From Azospirillum ramasamyi (lineage in GTDB: Bacteria > Pseudomonadota > Alphaproteobacteria > Azospirillales > Azospirillaceae): a stretch of 64,000 bases of DNA. Position 1 is the first letter of the stretch, and every line of letters starts with the position of its first letter. The notes under the pieces were generated by a model. The model worked only from the letters and a program-made list of their open reading frames with translations, had not been told where the DNA came from and did not search any database. This document shows, in pieces, positions 19,056 through 35,089 of this stretch. The translations under genes and the position numbers were made by a program. Location of the stretch: assembly GCF_003233655.1 (NCBI RefSeq), contig NZ_CP029831.1:621501-685500 (forward strand). The letters are read 5' to 3'.

Positions 19056-21390
<2,335 letters not shown>

Positions 21391-22383
21391 ATGATCCCCG
21401 GTTCGGTGACTCTCCGGCAGCTCCGCTATTTCGACTCATTGGCGCAGCACGCCCATTTCGGACGTGCGGCAGCCGCCTGTGCCGTTTCACAGCCCGCCCT
21501 GTCGATGCAGATCAAGGAGTTGGAGGTAGCTCTAGGGGGCGCGCTCGTCGAACGGGGCAGCCGGAGCGTGCGGCTCACCGCCTTCGGACAGGAGGCGTCC
21601 CTGCGGGTCCGCGACATCCTGCGTTCGGTCGATCAGCTTGGGGAACTCGCGCAGCTGTCCCGAAACCGGATCAGCGGCCGGCTGCGGATCGGCATGATCC
21701 CCACGATCGCGCCTTACCTGCTGCCGGACGTGATCAAGATCATCACGCGGGAGCACCCTCATGTGGAGATCGAGCTGCGCGAGGCGCTGACGTCGAAGCT
21801 GATCGCGGAACTGGCGGAGGGGCGGCTCGACACCGCGATCACCGCGCTGCCGGTGTTCGAGCCGTCCTTGAGCGAGGCGGTTCTGTTCACCGAGAATTTC
21901 CTGCTGGTCCGGTCGGCCGAGGATGCGGGAAAGCCGGCGCCCAGTGGGGAAATGCTGCGCGAAATGCGGCTGCTTCTGCTGGAGGAGGGGCATTGCTTCC
22001 GCAACCAGGCCCTCTCCTACTGCAACATGCCGTCCCCCTCGCCACGCAAGACGCTGGAGGCGAATTCCTTCTCCACGCTGGTCCAGATGGTCAGGGCCGG
22101 AATGGGCGTGACGCTGGTCCCGGAAATGGCGGTGGATTTGGAAACCGGCTTCGGCTCGGTGTCCGTCGTCCGTTTCAAGGATCCGCAGCCCTCGCGGACC
22201 ATCGGCATGATCTGGCGTAAGACGAGTCCGCTGTCGGCTCAGTTCCTGCAATTGGCGAAACTGCTGGGTCAGCCGGCCGACCCTGAAGGGGACGACGCAA
22301 TCTCCGACGTCGCCTCCCCAGTCCATCCTGTCGTCGGGAGGCCTCCATCTTCAGAGGCAATCCGTAAGAGAACGAGGCAATAA
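21391..22383 (+). CDS. oxyR: Hydrogen peroxide-sensing LysR regulator OxyR
   Basis: A 330-residue LysR-type regulator. The N-terminal winged helix reads LRQLRYFDSLAQHAHFGRAA. The redox pair is preserved in EEGHCFRNQALSYC: Cys202 and Cys211, nine residues apart as Cys199 and Cys208 are in E. coli OxyR. It is about 25 residues longer than E. coli OxyR because of a Pro/Ser/Arg-rich tail. The divergent katG gene is the probable main target. Confidence 0.95.
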   Translation: MIPGSVTLRQLRYFDSLAQHAHFGRAAAACAVSQPALSMQIKELEVALGGALVERGSRSVRLTAFGQEASLRVRDILRSVDQLGELAQLSRNRISGRLRIGMIPTIAPYLLPDVIKIITREHPHVEIELREALTSKLIAELAEGRLDTAITALPVFEPSLSEAVLFTENFLLVRSAEDAGKPAPSGEMLREMRLLLLEEGHCFRNQALSYCNMPSPSPRKTLEANSFSTLVQMVRAGMGVTLVPEMAVDLETGFGSVSVVRFKDPQPSRTIGMIWRKTSPLSAQFLQLAKLLGQPADPEGDDAISDVASPVHPVVGRPPSSEAIRKRTRQ

Positions 22384-22514
22384 TACCGAGGGTAGGGGCT
22401 GTATGACATGCGGATTTAGGCGCTGCCCTGTCGCCAGTTGCTCCTCAAGCCGATCCTCTTATGATTGGCGGCAATGACCGCATCGACGGTCTCGCAAGAC
22501 GAAGGGTTCGGGAC

Positions 22515-23189
22515 ATGAATGACGCAACGGCGGGCTGGATCGAACTCCAGGCCGCGGACGGCCATCGGCTTCGCGCTTATCGGGCCCCGGCCAAGGGCGA
22601 GGAAATCGGGCGCCTGATCGTGGCGCCGGAGATCTTCGGCATCAACCGCCATATCCGCAGCGTGTGCGACGGCTTCGCCCAGCAGGGCTTCACCACCGTG
22701 GCGCCGGACCTGTTCGACCGTGCCGAGCGCGGGGTGGAACTGGCCTATGACGAGGCCGGCATCCAGCGGGGCATCGCGCTGAAGGGGGCGGTGCCGACGG
22801 CGGACGCGCTACAGGACGTCGCGGCGGCGCTGGACCATCTGGGCGGTGACGGGGCCGCGGCCATCGTCGGCTATTGCTGGGGCGGCAGCATCGCCTGGGC
22901 TGGGGCGGCGGTCCTGCCGTTGCGCGCCGCCATCGGCTATTACGGCGGCGACATCGGCAAGACGCTGGACAACGCGCCGCGGGTGCCGACCCTGCTGCAT
23001 TTCGGCGAACAGGACCACGCCATCCCGCTGTCGGTGGCGGAGGGCGTGCGCTCGCGTTATCCGTGGCTGCCGGTGCATGTCTATCCGGCCGGCCATGGCT
23101 TCAACTGCGACGAGCGGGGAAGCTTCCATCCGGAAAGCGCGGTCCTGGCGCTTCGGCGGACCGTGGGGATGCTGCGGGCCGTGTTCTGA
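22515..23189 (+). CDS. Dienelactone hydrolase family protein
   Basis: A 224-residue alpha/beta hydrolase. The catalytic cysteine sits in GYCWGG, the aspartate in FGEQDHAIP and the histidine in PAGHGFNCD, the Cys-Asp-His set of dienelactone hydrolases. No other aromatic degradation genes are close, so a housekeeping or detoxifying esterase role is as likely as chloroaromatic breakdown. ATG 22515 is preferred over an in-frame ATG at 22461 because AAGGG lies just before it and the family starts near here. Its last 89 bases overlap the end of msrQ on the other strand. Confidence 0.85.
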   Translation: MNDATAGWIELQAADGHRLRAYRAPAKGEEIGRLIVAPEIFGINRHIRSVCDGFAQQGFTTVAPDLFDRAERGVELAYDEAGIQRGIALKGAVPTADALQDVAAALDHLGGDGAAAIVGYCWGGSIAWAGAAVLPLRAAIGYYGGDIGKTLDNAPRVPTLLHFGEQDHAIPLSVAEGVRSRYPWLPVHVYPAGHGFNCDERGSFHPESAVLALRRTVGMLRAVF

Positions 23190-23859
23190 CCGGGCCGGTC
23201 CCGCCCCGCGCTTCCTTCCGGCGGCCCAGGCGGATCGGCCAGCGGCGGAAGGCCAGCAGCCCGATGCAGATCAGGGCATAGACCAGCGGCGCCGTCTGCC
23301 AGCCCTTCACCAGCATGATGAAGTGCAGGCAGGCGGCCAGCCCGGCAATGAACACGCCCTTGTGCAGGGCGCGCCAGCGCTTGCCGCCCAGCCGCTTCAC
23401 CATGCCGTCGGTGGAGGTCGCGGCCAGCGCCGCCAGGATCAGGAAGGCACCCATCCCGACCGTGATGTAGGGCCGCTTGACGATGTCCTTCCAGATCGCC
23501 CCCCAGTCGAAGAACTGGTCAAGCCCCACATAGGTGGACAGGTGGATGGTGGCGTAGAAGAAGGCGAACAGTCCCAGCATCCGCCGGAAGCGCGCCAGCC
23601 CCGCCACCCCCGTCAGCATGCGCAGCGGCGTCAGCGCCAGCGCGATCAGCAGGAAGCGCAAGGCCCACAAGCCGCTGGCCTTTACGCTTTCCAGCACCGG
23701 TTCCGCCCCCAGCTCGCCGGTGTAGGCGAGCCGGACGGTCCAGACCAGCGGGACGAGGCAGAGAAGGAAGACGACGGGCTTGGCCCAACGGGACGCGAGC
23801 GCGGCGTTCGCGGCGGCGCGCAGATCGACGCCGGCGGCGGCTGGTGCAGGGTCTGCCAT
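23101..23859 (-). CDS. msrQ: MsrQ, haem-binding membrane partner of MsrP
   Basis: A 252-residue membrane protein with about six helices (for example FLLCLVPLVWTVRLAYTG and the next, ALRFLLIALALTPLR) and conserved histidines for b haems. It passes electrons from the respiratory chain to periplasmic MsrP. The ATG at 23859 lies two bases after the msrP stop, so the two genes form one unit. The C-terminal 35 residues, rich in Arg, Pro and Ala, extend past the usual family end and are encoded opposite the end of the dienelactone hydrolase gene. Confidence 0.92.
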   Translation of the reverse strand: MADPAPAAAGVDLRAAANAALASRWAKPVVFLLCLVPLVWTVRLAYTGELGAEPVLESVKASGLWALRFLLIALALTPLRMLTGVAGLARFRRMLGLFAFFYATIHLSTYVGLDQFFDWGAIWKDIVKRPYITVGMGAFLILAALAATSTDGMVKRLGGKRWRALHKGVFIAGLAACLHFIMLVKGWQTAPLVYALICIGLLAFRRWPIRLGRRKEARGGTGPVRTRPAASPRSAEAPGPRFPDGSFPARRS

Positions 23860-23861
23860 GG

Positions 23862-24809
23862 TCAGTAGTTCGCCTTCAGGTCCATCCCGGCATAGAGCGA
23901 TGCGACCTCCTCGCCATATCCGTTGAACGGCAGGGTCTTGCGGCGGGAGAATTCGCCGACGCGCCGCTCGGTCGCCTGGCTCCAGCGCGGATGGTCGACC
24001 TCGGGGTTGACGTTGGAATAGAAGCCGTATTCGCGCGGTTGCGACTTGTTCCAGGCGGTCGGCGGCTGGTCCTTCACCAGCGTGATGCTGACGATCGACT
24101 TGATCGACTTGAAGCCGTATTTCCACGGCACCACCAGCCGGATCGGCGCGCCGTTCTGGTTGGGCAGCACCTCGCCATACATGCCGACGGCGAGCAGGGT
24201 GAGCGGGTGCATCGCCTCGTCCAGCCGCAGCCCTTCGGTGTAGGGCCAGTCCAGCACCCAGGAGCGCAGGCCCGGCATCTGCTTGGGGTCGTTCAGGGTC
24301 TGGAAGGCGACGTATTTGGCGTTGCCGGTCGGCTCCACCCGCTTCAGCAGTTCGGCCAGGGAGAAGCCGACCCAGGGGATCACCATCGACCAGCCTTCGA
24401 CGCAGCGCAGGCGGTAGACGCGCTCCTCCATCGGGAATTTCAGCAGGTCTTCGATACCGATGGTCATCGGTTTGGCGACCTCGCCGCCGACGGCGATTTC
24501 CCATGGGCGCGTCTTCAACGTGCCGGCATTGTCGGCGGGATCGTCCTTGGCGGTGCCGAACTCATAGAAATTGTTGTAGGTCGTGGCCGATTTCATCGGC
24601 GTGACGGGGTCGAACTTGGGATCGGCGGGCTTGATCGTGGTCGGCACCTGGAAGGACGCCGCAAACGCGTTGCCGCTCCACACCGGCAGGCTGCCCAGCG
24701 CCATCGCGGCGGCACCGCCGGCCATCAGGCTGCGGCGGCCGAGATACAGATCCCGCGGAGTCACCTCGTCCTCGCGGGCCTGCGAGGCGGCGGGGAATTT
24801 GAACAACAT
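23862..24809 (-). CDS. msrP: MsrP, periplasmic methionine sulfoxide reductase catalytic subunit
   Basis: A 315-residue molybdopterin enzyme that reduces methionine sulfoxide in periplasmic proteins. A Tat signal is seen at the N-terminus ([17 protein letters not shown]), meaning that it is exported folded with its cofactor. The molybdenum-coordinating cysteine is in [15 protein letters not shown]. The length suits the family. It is the first gene of msrPQ, and sits near katG-oxyR, giving a compact oxidative damage region. Confidence 0.94.
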
Positions 24810-25719: not shown

Positions 25720-28700
25720 ATGACGGCGATGGTGGAAACGGCGGACGCGTTGGATCCGAAGGTTCTGCTGATGGCCTTGCGGCAGCTGCGCAAGGGCGAT
25801 TTCTCCGTGCGGCTGCCGCTCGACCTGACCGGCATGGACGGCGAGATCGCCGCCGCCTTCAACGACGTGGTGGAGTTGAACCAGAACCTCACCACCGAGG
25901 TCAGCCGGCTCAGCGTCGCCATCGGCAAGGAAGGCCGCATCAGCCAGCGCGCCAAGTTGAACAATGCATCAGGCGGGTGGGAAACCTGCATCGACAGCAT
26001 CAATACGCTGGTCGGCGACATGATCCAGCCGACGACGGAAATCGCCCGCGTGATCGGCGCCGTCGCCAAGGGCGACCTGTCCAAGACCATGGCGCTGGAG
26101 ATCGAAGGCCGTCCGCTGCAGGGCGAGTTCCTGCGCACCGCCCGCAACGTCAACACCATGGTGGACCAGCTCGTCACCGTCACCACCGAGTTGACGCGTG
26201 TGGCGCGCGAGGTCGGCATCGAGGGCAAGCTGGGCGGTCAGGCCCAGGTGAAGGGCGTTGCCGGCAGCTGGAAGGATCTGACCGAGAACGTCAACGTGAT
26301 GGCGGCGAACCTGACCGGTCAGGTGCGCAACATCGCCGAGGTGACGACGGCGGTGGCCAAGGGCGACCTGTCGAAGAAGATCACCGTCGACGTGAAGGGC
26401 GAGATCCTCGAACTGAAATCCACCATCAACACCATGGTGGACCAGCTGAACAGCTTCGCCTCGGAAGTGACGCGCGTGGCGCGCGAGGTGGGCTCCGAAG
26501 GCAAGCTCGGCGGGCAGGCGAAGGTCGAGGGCGTCGGCGGTACCTGGAAGGACCTGACCGACAACGTGAACATGATGGCGGCCAACCTGACCGGTCAGGT
26601 GCGCAACATCGCCGAGGTGACGACGGCGGTGGCCAAGGGCGACCTGTCGAAGAAAATCACCGTCGACGTGAAGGGCGAAATCCTCGAACTGAAATCCACC
26701 ATCAACACCATGGTGGACCAGCTGAACAGCTTCGCTTCGGAAGTGACGCGCGTGGCGCGCGAGGTGGGCTCCGAAGGAAAGCTGGGTGGGCAGGCCAAGG
26801 TCGAGGGCGTCGGCGGCACCTGGAAGGATCTGACCGACAGTGTGAACATGATGGCGGCGAACCTGACCGGTCAGGTGCGCAACATCGCCGACGTGACCAC
26901 CGCCGTGGCGACGGGTGACCTGTCGAAGAAGATCACCGTCGACGTGAAGGGCGAAATCCTCGAACTGAAATCCACCATCAACACCATGGTGGACCAGCTG
27001 AACAGCTTCGCTTCGGAGGTGACGCGCGTGGCGCGCGAGGTGGGCTCCGAAGGCAAGCTCGGCGGTCAGGCCAAGGTCGAGGGCGTCGGCGGCACCTGGA
27101 AGGATCTGACCGACAGCGTGAACCTGATGGCGGCCAACCTGACCGGTCAGGTGCGCAACATCGCCGACGTGACCACCGCCGTGGCGAACGGCGACCTGTC
27201 GAAGAAGATCACCGTGCCGGTGAAGGGCGAAATCCTGGAGCTGAAGAACACCATCAACACCATGGTGGACCAGCTGAACAGCTTCGCCTCGGAGGTGACG
27301 CGCGTGGCGCGCGAGGTGGGTTCCGAGGGCAAGCTCGGCGGTCAGGCCCAGGTGAAGGGCGTCGGCGGCACCTGGAAGGATCTGACCGACAGCGTGAACG
27401 CGATGGCGACCAACCTGACCGGTCAGGTGCGCAACATCGCGGAGGTGACGACTGCCGTGGCGAACGGCGATCTGTCGAAGAAGATCACCGTCGACGTGAA
27501 GGGCGAGATTCTGGAGCTGAAATCCACCATCAACACCATGGTGGACCAGCTGAACAGCTTCGCCTCGGAAGTGACACGCGTGGCGCGCGAGGTGGGCTCG
27601 GAAGGCAAGCTCGGCGGTCAGGCGCAGGTGAAGGGGGTTGCCGGCACCTGGAAGGACTTGACCGACAACGTGAACGCGATGGCGACCAACCTGACCGGGC
27701 AGGTGCGCAACATCGCGGAGGTGACGACGGCGGTCGCCAACGGCGATCTGTCGAAGAAGATCACCGTCGACGTGAAGGGCGAGATTCTGGAGCTGAAATC
27801 CACCATCAACACCATGGTGGACCAGCTGAACAGCTTTGCCTCCGAAGTCGCCCGCGTGGCGCGCGAGGTGGGCATCGAGGGCAAGCTGGGCGGTCAGGCC
27901 CAGGTGAAGGGGGTCGCTGGCACCTGGAAGGATCTGACCGACAATGTGAACATGATGGCGGCGAACCTCACCGGTCAGGTGCGCAACATCGCGGAAGTGA
28001 CGACGGCGGTCGCCAAGGGCGACCTGTCGAAGAAGATCACCGTCGACGTGAAGGGCGAGATCTTCGAGCTGAAATCCACCATCAACACCATGGTGGACCA
28101 GCTGAACAGCTTCGCCTCGGAAGTGACGCGCGTGGCGCGCGAGGTGGGTTCCGAAGGCAAGCTGGGCGGGCAGGCCAAGGTGGAGGGCGTCGGCGGCACC
28201 TGGAAGGATCTGACCGACAACGTGAACATGATGGCGGCCAACCTGACCGGTCAGGTCCGCGGCATCGCCAGCGTCGTCACCGCGGTCGCCGACGGCGACC
28301 TGAAGCGCAAGCTGGCGGTGGACGCCAAGGGCGAGATCGCGGCGCTGGCCAACACCATCAACGGCATGATCGACACGCTGGCGACCTTCGCCGATCAGGT
28401 CACCAACGTGGCGCGCGAGGTGGGCATCGAAGGCAAGCTTGGCGGTCAGGCCCGCGTGCCCGGCGCCGCCGGCCTGTGGAAGGATCTTACGGAGAACGTG
28501 AACCAGCTGGCCGCCAACCTGACCACCCAGGTGCGCGCCATCGCCGAGGTCGCCACCGCCGTGACCAAGGGCGACCTGACCCGCTCCATCACCGTCGAGG
28601 CGATGGGCGAGGTCGCGGCGCTGAAGGACAACATCAACGAGATGATCCGCAATCTCCGCGACACCACGCTGAAGAACGCGGAGCAGGATTGGCTGAAGAC

Positions 28701-31599
28701 CAACCTCGCCAAATTCACCCGCATGCTGCAGGGCGAGCGCGATCTGGTCACCGTCTCCAACATGATCCTGTCGGAGATCGCGCCGCTGGTGAACGCGCAG
28801 CACGGAGTCTTCTACGTCGCCACCCGCGACCGCGACGAACCGCTGCTGGAACTGGTCGCCTCCTACGCGCTGAAGGAGCGCAAGAACTTGTCCAACCGTT
28901 TCCACCTGAAGGAAGGTCTGGTCGGGCAGTGCGCCTATGAGAAGAAGCGCATCCTGCTGACCAACGTTCCGCGCGATTACGTCGCCATCAGTTCCGGCCT
29001 GGGCGAGGCGCCGCCGCTGAACATCATCGTCTTGCCGGTGCTGTTCGAGGACGACGTGAAGGCGGTGATCGAGCTGGCGAGCTTCGGCCGCTTCAGCGAG
29101 ACGCATCAGAGCTTCCTGGAGCAGCTGACCGAAAGCATCGGCATCGTGCTCAACACGATCGCCGCCAACATGCGCACCGAAGGGCTGCTGAAGCAGTCGC
29201 AGCGCCTGACCACCGAACTTCAGAGCCAGCAGGAGGAGCTGAAGACCACCAACGAGCGGCTGGAACAGCAGGCCGCCTCGCTGCGCAAGTCGGAAGAGTT
29301 GCTGAAGGCCCAGCAGGAAAAGCTGACCACCACAAACGAGGCGCTGGAGGAGAAGGCCGAGCAGCTGGAGAAGCAGAACATCGAGGTGGAGCGCAAGAAC
29401 CGCGAGGTCGTGCTCGCCAAGGCGGCGCTGGAGGAAAAGGCGGAACAGCTCGCCCTGACCTCCAAGTACAAGTCGCAGTTCCTGGCGAACATGAGCCACG
29501 AGCTGCGCACGCCGCTGAACAGCCTGCTGATCCTGTCCAAACTGCTGGCCGACAACCCCGACACCAACCTGTCGGAACGTCAGGTGGAGTTCGCCCGCAC
29601 CATCCATTCCGCCGGCTCCGACCTGCTGGGGCTGATCAACGACATCCTCGACCTGTCGAAGATCGAATCCGGCACCGTCACGCTGGAGATCGGCGAGGTC
29701 GTGCTGGGCGACCTGCGCAACCATGTGGAGCGCACCTTCTCGCAAGTGGCGCAGGAGAAGAAGCTGGCCTTCACCATCGAGATGGACCAGTCGCTGCCCG
29801 CCAGCATCCAGACCGACGAGAAGCGGCTGGCCCAGGTGCTGAACAACCTGCTGTCCAACGCCTTCAAGTTCACGGATGCCGGCGGCATCACCTTCCGCGT
29901 CGCCCCGGCGACGGAGGGCTGGAGCGCCGCGCACCCGACGCTGAACGCGGCGGCGTCGGTGCTGGCCTTCAGCGTCGCCGACACCGGCATCGGCATCCCC
30001 GAGGACAAGCAGCGCATCATCTTCGAGGCGTTCCAGCAGGCCGACGGCACCACCAGCCGCAAATACGGCGGCACCGGCCTCGGCCTGTCGATCAGCCGCG
30101 AGATCGCCCGCCTGCTGGGCGGCGAGATCCGGGTGACCAGCACGCCCGGCAAGGGCAGTTCCTTCACCCTCTATGTCCCGCGCAGCTACGACGCGGCGGA
30201 GGAGACCGCCAGCCCGCTGGTCGCCGCGGCCAGCACCGCGCTGGCCCCCGCCAGCCTGCTGACCAAGCGGCCGGAGGCGGCGACCCGCCCGGTGGTGGCG
30301 TCCGGCCCGCAGGAGGGGCTCGCCCTGCTGGAGATGCAGCCGGCCGGCGACGACCGCGAACGCATCCGCGCCGGCGAGCCGGTGGTGCTGATCGTCGAGG
30401 ACGACGCGACCTTCGCCTCCATCCTGATCGACCTGGCGCGGGAGAAGGGATTCCGCACCGTCCTGTCGGCCGGCGGGGCGACGGCGCTGCCGCTGGCGCG
30501 CAAATACCGGCCGGACGCCATCCTGCTCGACATCGGGCTGCCGGACATGGACGGTTGGGCGCTGCTCGACCTGCTGAAGCGCGATCCGCAGACCCGCCAC
30601 ATCCCGGTCCACGTCATCTCCGCCAAGGACGAGCGGCGGCGCGGCCTGTCGATGGGCGCCTTCGACTATTCGGAGAAGCCGGTGGAGCGCGAGGCCATCT
30701 TCGACGCCCTGAACCGGGTGAAGAGCTTCAAGGAGCGCGATCACCGCAAACTGCTGGTGGTGGAGAAGGACAATCCACAGCCGGGCGCCGTCGCCGCACT
30801 GATCGGCAACGGCGACGTGGAGAGCCACACCGTCACCTCGATCGAGGCGGCCATGGCGGCGCTGTCGGCCGACCGCTTCGACTGCATGGTGCTGGATCTG
30901 TCCAGCCCGGCGCTGCCCGGCCCTACTGCCGCCGATTTCGAACTGGTGGAATGGCTGCGCACCCGCGACACGCTCGCCTGGATGCCGGTGGTGGTCTATG
31001 TCGCCTCCGATATCACGGCGGAGGACGAGGCGCGGCTGCGCCGGCTGGCCGAGACCGTGGTGCTGAAGAGCGCCCGGTCGCCCGCCGGGTTGCTCGACGA
31101 GACCGCGCTGTTCCTGCACCGCGCCGTTGACAAGCTGCCCGACGACAAGAGGCGCAGCATTCTGGACCTGCGCCAGCACGACCCGTCGCTGGCCGGCAAG
31201 CGGGTGCTGGTGATCGACGACGACATCCGCAACATCTTCTCGCTCGCCAGCGTGATGGAGGCACACAGGATCGAGGTCCTGCATGCCGAAAGCGGGCGCG
31301 AGGGGATCGAGCGGCTGCGCGCCGATCCGGGCGTCGACGTGGTGCTGGTGGACATCATGATGCCGGAGATGGACGGCTACGAAACCATGCGCACGATCCG
31401 CAGCATTGAGGAGTTCCGCGGCCTGCCGATGATCGCCGTCACCGCGAAGGCGATGAAGGGCGACCGCGACAAGTGCATCGAGGCCGGGGCGACCGACTAT
31501 ATCGCCAAGCCGGTGGACATCGACCATCTGCTGTCGCTGCTGCGGATCTGGACCGCCAAGGGCGGCAGGCCGCAGCCGCGCGGCGGAGTTCCGGCATGA
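25720..31599 (+). CDS. Giant cytoplasmic poly-HAMP hybrid histidine kinase (Nik1/group III-like)
   Basis: A 1959-residue hybrid kinase without membrane segments. Order: a degenerate HAMP (about residues 17-65), a second HAMP (about 105-160), nine tandem HAMP units (162-989), GAF (about 1008-1144), a long coiled coil (1148-1254), HisKA with His1260 in [10 protein letters not shown], HATPase (about 1361-1488), and three receivers with acceptor Asp1604, Asp1726 and Asp1878. The middle receiver is degenerate: its acidic pair is replaced by VVEKDN. The repeat consensus ([42 protein letters not shown]) is that of fungal group III kinases such as Nik1/Os-1. AAGGGGA at 25708-25714 sets the ATG. The next gene overlaps by four bases. 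The stimulus, perhaps osmotic or cytoplasmic, is inferred. Confidence 0.92.
26203..28686 (+). repeat. Nine 276-bp tandem repeats within the kinase gene
   Basis: Nine in-frame units of exactly 276 bases (92 codons), each beginning at the codons for AREVG, run from 26203 to 28686. Units one to seven are nearly identical at the DNA level for long stretches (for example around the codons for [22 protein letters not shown], counted in two parts), while units eight and nine have diverged ([20 protein letters not shown]). This suggests recent expansion or gene conversion and makes copy-number change by recombination likely. Confidence 0.9.
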
Positions 31600-34007
31600 C
31601 CCGGCGCAAGCTGCGTGTGGCGCGGGTGGCGCGGCGCGGGCCGTTCGTGCCGCCGTCCGCCTTTCCGGTGCCGGCAGTCCGCCGCTCGCGGCTGCTCGGC
31701 ACCACAAGCGTCCATCTGGGCGGCTTCCAACCGGGCGGCGTCCAGCCGGCCGGCAAGGATGCCGTCAGCCAGACGCTTCTGCCGCCGGATGTGGCACCGC
31801 CCGCACCGGCACCCGTTCCGGCCGCCACACCTGTACCGGCGGCCGGTGCCCCCGCGGGATGGGAAAGCATGACCACCGACGTTCCTCCGCAGCCCGACAA
31901 GGTCGACGTGGCGATCCTGATCGTCGACGACGATCCGCGGAACCTGTTCGCCGTGCGCGAGACGCTGGAGGACATGAACGCGCAGCTCGTCCTGGCGAGA
32001 TCCGGGGAGGAGGCGCTGAAGCACCTGCTGCGCCAGGACTTCGCGCTGATCCTGCTCGATGTCCACATGCCGGGGATGGACGGCTACGAGACGGCGGAGC
32101 TGATCCGCCTGCGCGAGAAGTCCCGCCACATTCCGATCATCTTCCTGACCGCCATCAACAAGGACGAAACGCACATCTTCCGCGGCTATGCCAGCGGCGC
32201 CGTGGATTACATGTTCAAGCCGGTCGATCCGCACATCCTGAAATGCAAGGTGTCGGTGTTCGTCGACCTCTACCGCAAGACGGAGGCGGTGAAGCGCGAG
32301 GTCGAGGCCAAGCAGCGCCTGCTTGATGAGAACGAGCGGGTGCGACGCGAGATGCGGCAGGCCGAACAGGCGCTGCGCCGGTCGGAGGAGCGGCAGGCGC
32401 TGATCCTGGGGCAACTGCCCATCGTGCTCTACACCGCCGATCTCACGTCGGGGATTCCGTTCCGCTACCTGTCGGACACGGCGCAGTCGGTGCTTGGCTG
32501 CCCGCCCGCCCGCTTCATCGACGATCCCGGCTATTGGGAGGCGGGACTTCATCCCGACGACCGCAACCGCGTGCTGCGCCAGCTGGAGTCGATCCACGAC
32601 ACCGGGCTGACGACGGTCGAATACCGCTGGCGCTGCCCTGACGGCAGCGAGCGCCATCTTCTGGACCAGGCGGTGGTGGTGCGCGACGAGGAGGGCCGGC
32701 CGGCCGAGCTGTTCGGCACCATCATGGACGTGACCGAGACGCGGCAGGCCCAGCGCCAGCTTGCCCACGCCCAGAAAATGGAGATGGTCGGCCAGTTGAC
32801 CGGCGGCATCGCCCATGACTTCAACAACATGCTGATGGTGGTGATCGGCAGCCTGGAGCGGCTGGTCCCCAGCCTTGCCGGCGATCCGAAATCGGCCAGA
32901 CGAGCGGAGATGGCGCTGCAGGCGGCGCTGCGCTGTTCCGACATGACGCGGCGCCTGCTGACCTTCGCGCGGCGCCAGCAGCTCCACCCGGAGCCGGTCG
33001 ATCTCGGCGCCCTGGTCGCCGGCATGGGCGAGTTGATGGAGCGCACGCTGGGCGGCGGCGTCGGCATCGCCATCGAAGCGCCAGCCGCCGATGCGGAGCC
33101 GCTGTGGACCGCGTCGGTCGACCGGTCGCAGGCGGAATCGGCGCTGCTGAACCTCGTCATCAACGCCCGCGACGCCATGCCCGGCGGCGGCACCCTGCGC
33201 ATCCGCACCGAGAACGCCCGTTTCGAGGAAATGCAGTCCGCCCATGGCATGTCCATCCCGGCCGGCGACTACATCCTGCTGTCGGTGTCCGACAGCGGAT
33301 GCGGGATGCCGCCCGACGTGCTGGAACGCGCCTTCGAGCCCTTCTTCACCACCAAGGAGGCGGGGAAGGGGACCGGTCTCGGCCTTGCCATGATTCATGG
33401 CTTCGTCAAGCAGTCGGGCGGGCTGATCGGCGTCGACAGCAGTCCGGGTTCCGGCACCACCTTCCGCCTCTACCTGCCGAGGGCGACGGTCGATGCGGCC
33501 CACGGCACGGCCTCCGACGACGACGGCGCCGAAGAGGCGTTCGCCGGCCATGGCGAGACGGTGCTGGTGGTGGATGACGACGCCGACGTGCGCGCCGTCG
33601 CCCTCCAGGCCGTGGCCGCGCTGGGCTACCGCGTGCTGGAAGCCGATGGGGCCGAGGCGGCGTTGACTTTGCTTGATCGCCAGCCGGTCGATCTTCTGTT
33701 CACCGATATCGTGATGCCGGGCGGCCTGAACGGACGCGAACTGGCGCGCGAGGGGCTGCGACGCTACCCCTCTCTGCGGGTCCTGTTCGCCTCCGGCTAT
33801 GCCAACGGAACCAGTGCGCCGGAGCAGGAGGCCGGCGCCGCGATGCCAGCAGACGACGGCACCGATCCGGGCGCCGTGCTGGGGGCTGCTTTGTGCCGGG
33901 CGGAGACCTTGGCCAAGCCCTACCGCGACGGCGATCTTGCCCGCGCGCTGCGCCGCGCGCTGGATCTGCAGTCCCCCCTCGCGCCGGCGGAGGCCGTCCG
34001 GGGCTGA
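31596..34007 (+). CDS. Hybrid sensor kinase: receiver-coiled coil-PAS-HisKA-HATPase-receiver
   Basis: An 803-residue soluble protein coupled to the poly-HAMP kinase by an ATGA overlap. Residues 1-90 are an Arg- and Pro/Ala-rich, probably disordered leader. Then come a receiver (Asp155 in [10 protein letters not shown]), a coiled coil, a PAS domain (about 268-382), HisKA with His407 in [11 protein letters not shown], an HATPase domain ending [12 protein letters not shown], and a C-terminal receiver (Asp704 in [10 protein letters not shown]). The N-terminal receiver is a likely phosphate acceptor from the upstream kinase, making a multi-step relay. GGAG at 31585-31588 supports ATG 31596; ATG 31869, after the leader, is a possible second start. 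Confidence 0.88.
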
Positions 34008-34541: not shown

Positions 34542-34811
34542 ATGGACGTCGTGAAGTCGGCGGTCTATCTGCTGTGCTTTGCCGCCAGCCTGCTGTGCAT
34601 GGTCCTGCTGCTGCGCAGCTACCTGCGGTCGCGCAGCCGGCTTCTGCTGTGGAGCACGCTGTGCTTCGTCTGCCTGGCGATCAACAACCTGCTGCTGTTC
34701 ATCGATGCCGTCGTCCTGCCGACCCAGGTGGACCTGCTGCCGTTCCGCCAGTTCTCCGCCATGGCCGGCGTGGGCGTGCTGCTCTACGGCTTCATCTGGG
34801 ATGCAGAGTGA
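34542..34811 (+). CDS. DUF5985-type small membrane protein 1
   Basis: An 89-residue protein with three hydrophobic helices (AVYLLCFAASLLCMVLLL; LWSTLCFVCLAINNLLLFID; FSAMAGVGVLLYGFIW) and a basic loop (RSYLRSRSR) between the first two. GGGGAGG precedes the ATG. It matches the pattern of DUF5985 proteins, which have no known function. Its stop overlaps the start of the next, related gene, so the two form a pair, perhaps a heteromeric membrane complex. Confidence 0.7.
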   Translation: MDVVKSAVYLLCFAASLLCMVLLLRSYLRSRSRLLLWSTLCFVCLAINNLLLFIDAVVLPTQVDLLPFRQFSAMAGVGVLLYGFIWDAE

Positions 34812-35089
34812 TGCTGCCGACGACATCGAGTTTCTTCACCGGTGCGCTTGCAGCACTCTATGCGGTCGCCGGGCTGTTCTTCCTCAGCTTCTGGAAGCGG
34901 ACACGCGATGCGCTGTTCGCCTCCTTCGCGCTGGCCTTCGCGCTGCTGGCGGTGAACCAGACCGTGCTGGCGCTCGGCGGGCTGGAACGGGAGGAGCAGA
35001 GCTGGGTCTATCTGCTGCGGCTGCTGGCCTTCCTCGTGATCATCGCCGCCATCGTGCGCAAGAATTTCGAGGGGCGCCGCCGCCGCTGA
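34811..35089 (+). CDS. DUF5985-type small membrane protein 2
   Basis: A 92-residue protein with three helices in the same order as its neighbour (FFTGALAALYAVAGLFFLSF; FASFALAFALLAVNQTVLAL; LLRLLAFLVIIAAIV) and a basic tail (RKNFEGRRRR). ATG overlaps the preceding stop in TGATG. The two proteins share a topology and the F/N...L-A-x-N pattern, suggesting duplication. As the only membrane proteins of the operon, they may connect the cytoplasmic kinases to the membrane; this is inference. Confidence 0.7.
   Translation: MLPTTSSFFTGALAALYAVAGLFFLSFWKRTRDALFASFALAFALLAVNQTVLALGGLEREEQSWVYLLRLLAFLVIIAAIVRKNFEGRRRR

Follow-up and report, generated by a model that had tools for sequence, protein, structure and literature searches.

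The poly-HAMP kinase locus of Azospirillum ramasamyi

We analyzed a 64,000-nucleotide stretch of the Azospirillum ramasamyi genome (assembly GCF_003233655.1, contig NZ_CP029831.1, positions 621,501 to 685,500; hereafter the window), which codes for a giant soluble hybrid histidine kinase with a long tandem array of HAMP domains and, downstream on the same strand, for a second receiver-containing kinase, a small winged-helix-like protein and two DUF5985 membrane proteins (Table 1). The open reading frame (ORF) of the poly-HAMP kinase runs without internal stops from the ATG at 25720, 5' of which stands AAGGGGAA; in-frame start codons are also present further upstream. Pfam searches recovered HAMP (10 stretches, E 7e-95), GAF_2, HisKA, HATPase_c and three Response_reg stretches, and a simple hydropathy test did not find a membrane segment (maximal 19-residue mean 1.59, just below the threshold of 1.6), in keeping with the giant soluble kinase of this domain order described in the initial annotation. 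The protein belongs to an already described bacterial family resembling the fungal group III kinases, the Ask-type kinases, and we consider it probable that it works with the kinase encoded by the adjacent gene. What is new here is the near-invariant register of the array, the gene directly downstream, which codes for a receiver-containing kinase or, at fewer loci, for CheR, and the cassette found beside some of these kinases.

The kinase core looks intact at the level of sequence. Judged by eye, the second receiver retains the aspartate of MVLDL and one lysine, while its acidic pair is replaced by VVEKD, and it looks degenerate. Among the matches listed, the array is carried at no second place of this genome. 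An antisense frame (25969-31707, minus strand), open for 1912 residues from a TTG, spans most of the kinase gene; GC-rich repeated codons probably account for it.

Table 1. Features of the poly-HAMP kinase locus (positions are those of the window)
Feature	Residues	Position	Strand	Basis or remark
Soluble poly-HAMP hybrid histidine kinase, 1959 aa		25720..31599	+	ORF and Pfam
Array of 21 HAMPs (11 GD-type, 10 EGK-type)	8-978	25741..28653	+
Sole array irregularity, +5 insertion in third HAMP	127-137	26098..26130	+
GAF domain	1007-1144	28738..29151	+	Pfam
HisKA	1251-1318	29470..29673	+	SHELRTP box starting at residue 1259
HATPase_c	1365-1488	29812..30183	+	Pfam
Receiver 1	about 1553-1668	30376..30723	+	Pfam
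Receiver 2	about 1676-1800	30745..31119	+	third Response_reg stretch; boundaries by eye
Receiver 3	1829-1941	31204..31542	+	Pfam
Partner kinase, REC-PAS-HisKA-HATPase-REC, 712 aa		31869..34007	+	269 bases 3' of the poly-HAMP kinase
Winged-helix-like protein, 142 aa		34020..34448	+	by eye; no Pfam match; conserved neighbor
DUF5985 membrane protein, copy B		34542..34811	+
DUF5985 membrane protein, copy A		34811..35089	+

The array comprises 21 HAMPs of two alternating types

Tandem Repeats Finder detects a 276 bp period in the kinase DNA (8.8 copies, 88% matches). In the protein, GD-type motifs occur at residues 25, 117 and 214 and then at every 92nd residue up to 950, giving eleven units with spacings of 92, 97 and eight times 92. 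Half-way between them lie ten EGK-type units, offset by 46 residues and at one place by 51, such that every 92-residue repeat holds two HAMPs, 46 residues apart. The count of eleven HAMPs in the initial annotation equals the number of GD-type units and had to be dropped in favor of 21 on the basis of register and model. In the profile search of HAMP units that it proposed, of three GD-type units run singly against Pfam, those at 26308-26445 and 28516-28653 exceeded the cut-off and the first (25741-25878) stayed below it at 16.9 bits, whereas four of the ten EGK-type units run in the same way matched no family. In hhalign comparisons the EGK-type units gave a weak, in-register HAMP match.

AlphaFold predicts a helix-connector-helix arrangement in units of both types. 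In a monomer model of a GD-EGK-GD segment, which has a predicted local distance difference test score (pLDDT) of 90, helices 31-61 and 78-109 flank the EGK connector, and the model matches the three-HAMP structures of Aer2 (3lnr, 4i3m, 4i44) end to end, aligned over model residues 1-140; the other HAMP structures aligned to it cover mostly the first, GD-type, unit. As modeled, then, the EGK-type segments have the HAMP fold. The five-residue insertion is rendered as two short strands in the first AlphaFold model (block pLDDT about 78-82). The array has one cysteine, Cys90.

These models also bear on an entirely different function, in which the stack is a DNA-binding part whose repeated partial helix-turn-helix domains bind promoters, as has been proposed for AskA and AskB of Myxococcus xanthus. 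The whole window protein matches SpoIIID in Pfam at 38.6 bits (cut-off 27) and HTH_6 at 26.8 bits (under the cut-off of 28.3); by description, AskA and AskB have matches of the same kinds, and the proposal rests on these; AskB bound DNA in vitro (PMC7643160). However, neither family yields a single stretch passing E 0.01 in the window kinase. The best HTH_6 stretch (residues 233-261) falls almost wholly inside a predicted helix (227-257), and the best SpoIIID stretch (919-945) corresponds, by repeat position only, to a modeled helix at 274-305. Since these stretches lie on a predicted continuous helix, we dropped helix-turn-helix domains as candidates within the array, attribute the matches to repeats and long helices, and regard a DNA-binding role as very improbable.

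Register is conserved while array length varies

Our named scan confirmed at least 590 stretches, from which 80 loci were kept, many of them metagenome bins; their record titles span eleven phyla. Strong array matches (E < 1e-70) were found in 26 of 41 relatives, the source genome included, 24 of them within the genus (25 genomes searched), and in 20 of the 299 genomes of a phylum sample, again counting the source genome. We examined 80 poly-HAMP ORFs, of which 58 came from named loci, 20 from the genus, one from a Myxococcus region and one from the window. Intact (GD-EGK)n-GD arrays with the full C-terminal part are present in 71; the remaining nine include no intact array of another pattern, and one of them, a split ORF (L078), reads with a leading double GD. 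The 1372 junctions of the intact arrays have spacings of 46 (1291), 51 (71), 45 (6), 47 (2) and 49 (2) residues, the register of 46 or 51 being held in 1362. The position of the 51-residue spacing is shared by 70 of the 71 arrays.

The number of GD-type units ranges from 4 to 16 across these arrays, with 11 in 35 ORFs, 8 in 16 and 13 in 9. The window kinase has the commonest size, 11 GD-type units, although the additional genus loci, 12 out of 20 of them with 11 units, weigh on that count. We have therefore abandoned the idea of an unusually long stack, which the initial annotation had found remarkable; arrays longer than that of NIK1 are already in print for bacteria (PMC7643160), as are nine-HAMP kinases with GAF for Azospirillum itself (PMC4618731). 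Within the genus the number differs among 8, 11 and 13, and two genomes (L155/L166 of G022; L156/L157 of G001) have a second, longer array of 13+12 besides one of 11+10. Recombination between 92-residue repeats would change arrays by whole pairs, so an odd HAMP total could persist without selection; more informative are the unvarying register and the irregularity that is fixed in the third HAMP.

Between the window and its close relatives (L147-L153), EGK-type repeats resemble those at the same position more than others (about 0.99 versus 0.87), and this advantage is nearly gone in other genera, as in the Myxococcus array L071 (0.845 versus 0.839, as against 0.936 among its own repeats); we accordingly dropped the notion of position-stable repeats. 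In all 19 non-Azospirillum 11+10 arrays compared, the EGK-type repeats are closer to their own array than to the same window position, which suggests that arrays are homogenized over time; this is less clear for the GD-type repeats, for which the 19 comparisons are mixed.

This homogenization of the EGK-type repeats, together with the wide range of array lengths even inside one genus, would suit a stack acting as a passive dimerization rod or spacer, with the signal arriving via the GAF domain or from the partner kinase and with neutral array length. Set against this, the register and the placement of the irregularity, both almost without exception, suggest a mechanical constraint, and HAMP deletions in fungi change output (PMC3848655). 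On balance we think a merely passive array somewhat unlikely.

A second kinase lies downstream in most loci

The partner kinase of the window occupies the position of AskC in M. xanthus; its HisKA match, at 25.8 bits, is slightly below the Pfam cut-off of 26.9. We surveyed neighbors at 58 loci, namely 57 of the 80 named loci and the window. Immediately downstream, on the same strand, the gene scores as a receiver before a kinase in 34, as a receiver detected by BLAST only in nine (one of which, L064, is 2.1 kb away) and as a CheR-type protein in 11, and is something else or absent in four. The directly upstream side offers a receiver before a kinase once (on the opposite strand), a BLAST-detected receiver three times, a kinase only once, and CheR never. 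When the CheR-type loci, L064 and the last four are set aside, Pfam finds receiver and HATPase_c in all 42 downstream proteins, HisKA in 41 and PAS_3 in 28. Thus, a receiver-containing second kinase lies directly downstream in 42 of the 58 loci. The CheR-type genes (L071, L085, L093, L096, L098, L099, L101, L106, L113, L117 and L120) were identified by BLAST, with Pfam run on three of the eleven.

At 19 of 20 further genus loci the partner is kept, at 49-93% identity; at one locus (L154 of G003) it reads as two overlapping pieces in different frames. At the twentieth (G007) the partner and the DUF5985 cassette are found together, 2.3 Mb from the kinase. In M. qinghaiensis (L146) the array has 16+15 units, as against 11+10 in the window, and the kinase encoded behind it can be aligned with the window partner, at 42% in the REC-PAS region and 29% in the kinase part.

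A tree of kinase cores was built from 57 poly-HAMP kinases, the 22 of the 42 partners that aligned well enough, and seven other kinases of this genome. The three groups separate with three changes in total (minimum two). The poly-HAMP rows need two changes against a shuffled mean of 24.5, being clustered rather than forming one clean clade, with long branches flagged; the window core pairs with that of an Azospirillum locus, L058 (97*, long branches likewise flagged).

The DUF5985 cassette and other neighbors

Downstream of the partner in the window follow the winged-helix-like protein and the two DUF5985 proteins, both hydrophobic. The same three genes occur in the same order in at least 17 of 102 sources searched, a lower bound because many sources end near the kinase. 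The cassette follows the partner in the window, at seven loci of the genus and at two of Polyangium. In Myxococcus (L071) it comes after a CheR gene and some others, and at six loci, from Sphingomonas, Sphingosinicella, Tsuneonella, Caulobacter and Brevundimonas, it is oriented divergently from the kinase. DUF5985 scores above the cut-off in six of the 299 sample genomes, all within the 20 poly-HAMP genomes (Fisher 4e-8, not corrected for descent), and in 14 of the 41 relatives, all of them poly-HAMP genomes (Fisher 2.7e-4). Five further sample genomes have weak DUF5985 matches, and only one of these (G158) is a strong poly-HAMP genome.

These associations raise the possibility that the poly-HAMP kinase, the partner, the winged-helix-like protein and the DUF5985 pair constitute one unrecognized signaling module, extending from Alphaproteobacteria to Myxococcota, in which the DUF5985 pair would provide a membrane input missing from the kinase itself. 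Against a tight link stand the absence of DUF5985 from 12 of the 26 poly-HAMP relatives and 14 of the 20 poly-HAMP sample genomes, and its location away from both kinases in G020, G038, G150 and G298 (within stretches of 8-11 kb). We offer the module as a tentative and, as it stands, doubtful proposal. In G298, some other histidine kinase lies near the DUF5985 copy.

Upstream of the kinase gene, 19056-24809 holds a catalase-peroxidase-like gene (minus strand, by eye), a LysR regulator (plus), a dienelactone hydrolase-like gene (plus) and a molybdopterin oxidoreductase (minus), and looks like an oxidative-stress neighborhood.

Relationship to Ask-type and fungal group III kinases

In PMC7643160, Amb07 of Sorangium cellulosum and AskA and AskB of M. 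xanthus are likened to hybrid kinase group III, and AskC adjoins AskB immediately downstream. By description, these proteins combine a long poly-HAMP array with a kinase and receivers. The window kinase in the same way has multiple HAMPs with no membrane segment, a kinase followed by several receivers, and another hybrid kinase encoded immediately downstream, as at askB. The closest published Azospirillum proteins are two hybrid kinases, AZOLI_p30171 and AZL_c01470, noted in 2015 as nine tandem repeated HAMP-GAF (PMC4618731). They share genus, array kind and GAF domain with the window kinase by description and are probably its orthologues; they were called orphan there, whereas the window kinase has an adjoining partner.

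The fungal group III kinases (Nik1, Os-1, Bos1, TcsC, Drk1) are, like the window kinase, hybrid kinases with no transmembrane region. CaNik1p of Candida has nine HAMPs, arranged as four 92-residue pairs and a single one, followed by HisKA, HATPase_c and REC (PMC3848655). The resemblance to Nik1 claimed in the initial annotation thus extends to the pairs-plus-one layout of the array, with 21 HAMPs against nine, and not to the C-terminal half: in place of HisKA, HATPase_c and one receiver only, the window kinase has in addition a GAF domain and two more receivers. An extra pseudo-receiver has been described for Drk1. Window residues 8-291 align gap-free to PDB 9trk, and the array start likewise to 9trj, both being histidine kinase segments fused to Gcn4p; identity to 9trk is 69.5% for the window kinase (279 residues) and 92.8% for the Myxococcus kinase L071. 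Among the best 60 of 310 PDB matches, none bears the name of a fungal group III kinase.

Given the shared pair layout, and the altered fungicide sensitivity that follows fungal HAMP mutations and deletions (PMC3848655), the window kinase might sense osmotic state directly or respond to fungicides in the manner of Nik1/Os-1, its HAMP stack serving as sensor. Several points speak against this. Ambruticin was not bound in vitro by AskA and AskB, while AskC bound it weakly, with a mean dissociation constant of 300 uM (PMC7643160). Fludioxonil is reported to act via methylglyoxal and, in part, via Cys392 in a Drk1 HAMP; for such a sentinel cysteine mechanism the window array has only Cys90. Bacteria are not known to have a HOG pathway. 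Together with the GAF domain and three receivers that set the protein apart from CaNik1p, these points make a direct sensor of this type quite improbable.

A model for signaling through the array

Our favored reading remains an Ask-type poly-HAMP hybrid kinase working with its neighbor. The 21 HAMPs in fixed register, the GAF domain, the three receivers, the lack of a membrane segment and the conserved downstream partner are evident from sequence or model. We infer the mechanism that follows by analogy, because HAMP deletion in Nik1 activates Hog1 (PMC3848655), the HAMP conformers of Aer2 send opposite signals (PMC3570549), and, among the Ask kinases, a two-hybrid assay shows Rec3 of AskA interacting with the receiver of AskC (PMC7643160). 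Aer2 of Pseudomonas aeruginosa itself differs in having three plus two HAMPs, a PAS domain and a chemoreceptor output (PMC3570549).

The kinase would dimerize into a long rod in which GD-type and EGK-type HAMPs alternate between the two Aer2 conformers. The stack may normally hold the kinase in one signaling state, much as Nik1 gives output without a stimulus once its HAMPs are removed. An input, possibly entering at the GAF domain and at the single irregular HAMP, which lies close to the N-terminus, would flip the stack and switch the enzyme between kinase and phosphatase. The last receiver would then communicate with the partner through the latter's N-terminal receiver, and a PAS or GAF domain in the partner may add a second, small-molecule input. 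As array length changes by whole pairs, the sign of the signal would be left unchanged.

Conclusions

A family with 4-16 GD-type units in an almost unbroken register provides a natural series of length and sign for models of HAMP relay. The fungal form of the soluble HAMP-stack kinase is a fungicide-response kinase. In the bacterial form, possible entry points for the input are suggested by the conserved partner kinase and by the DUF5985 cassette, and entry by this route would explain how a kinase with no membrane segment or obvious sensor ahead of its stack responds at all.
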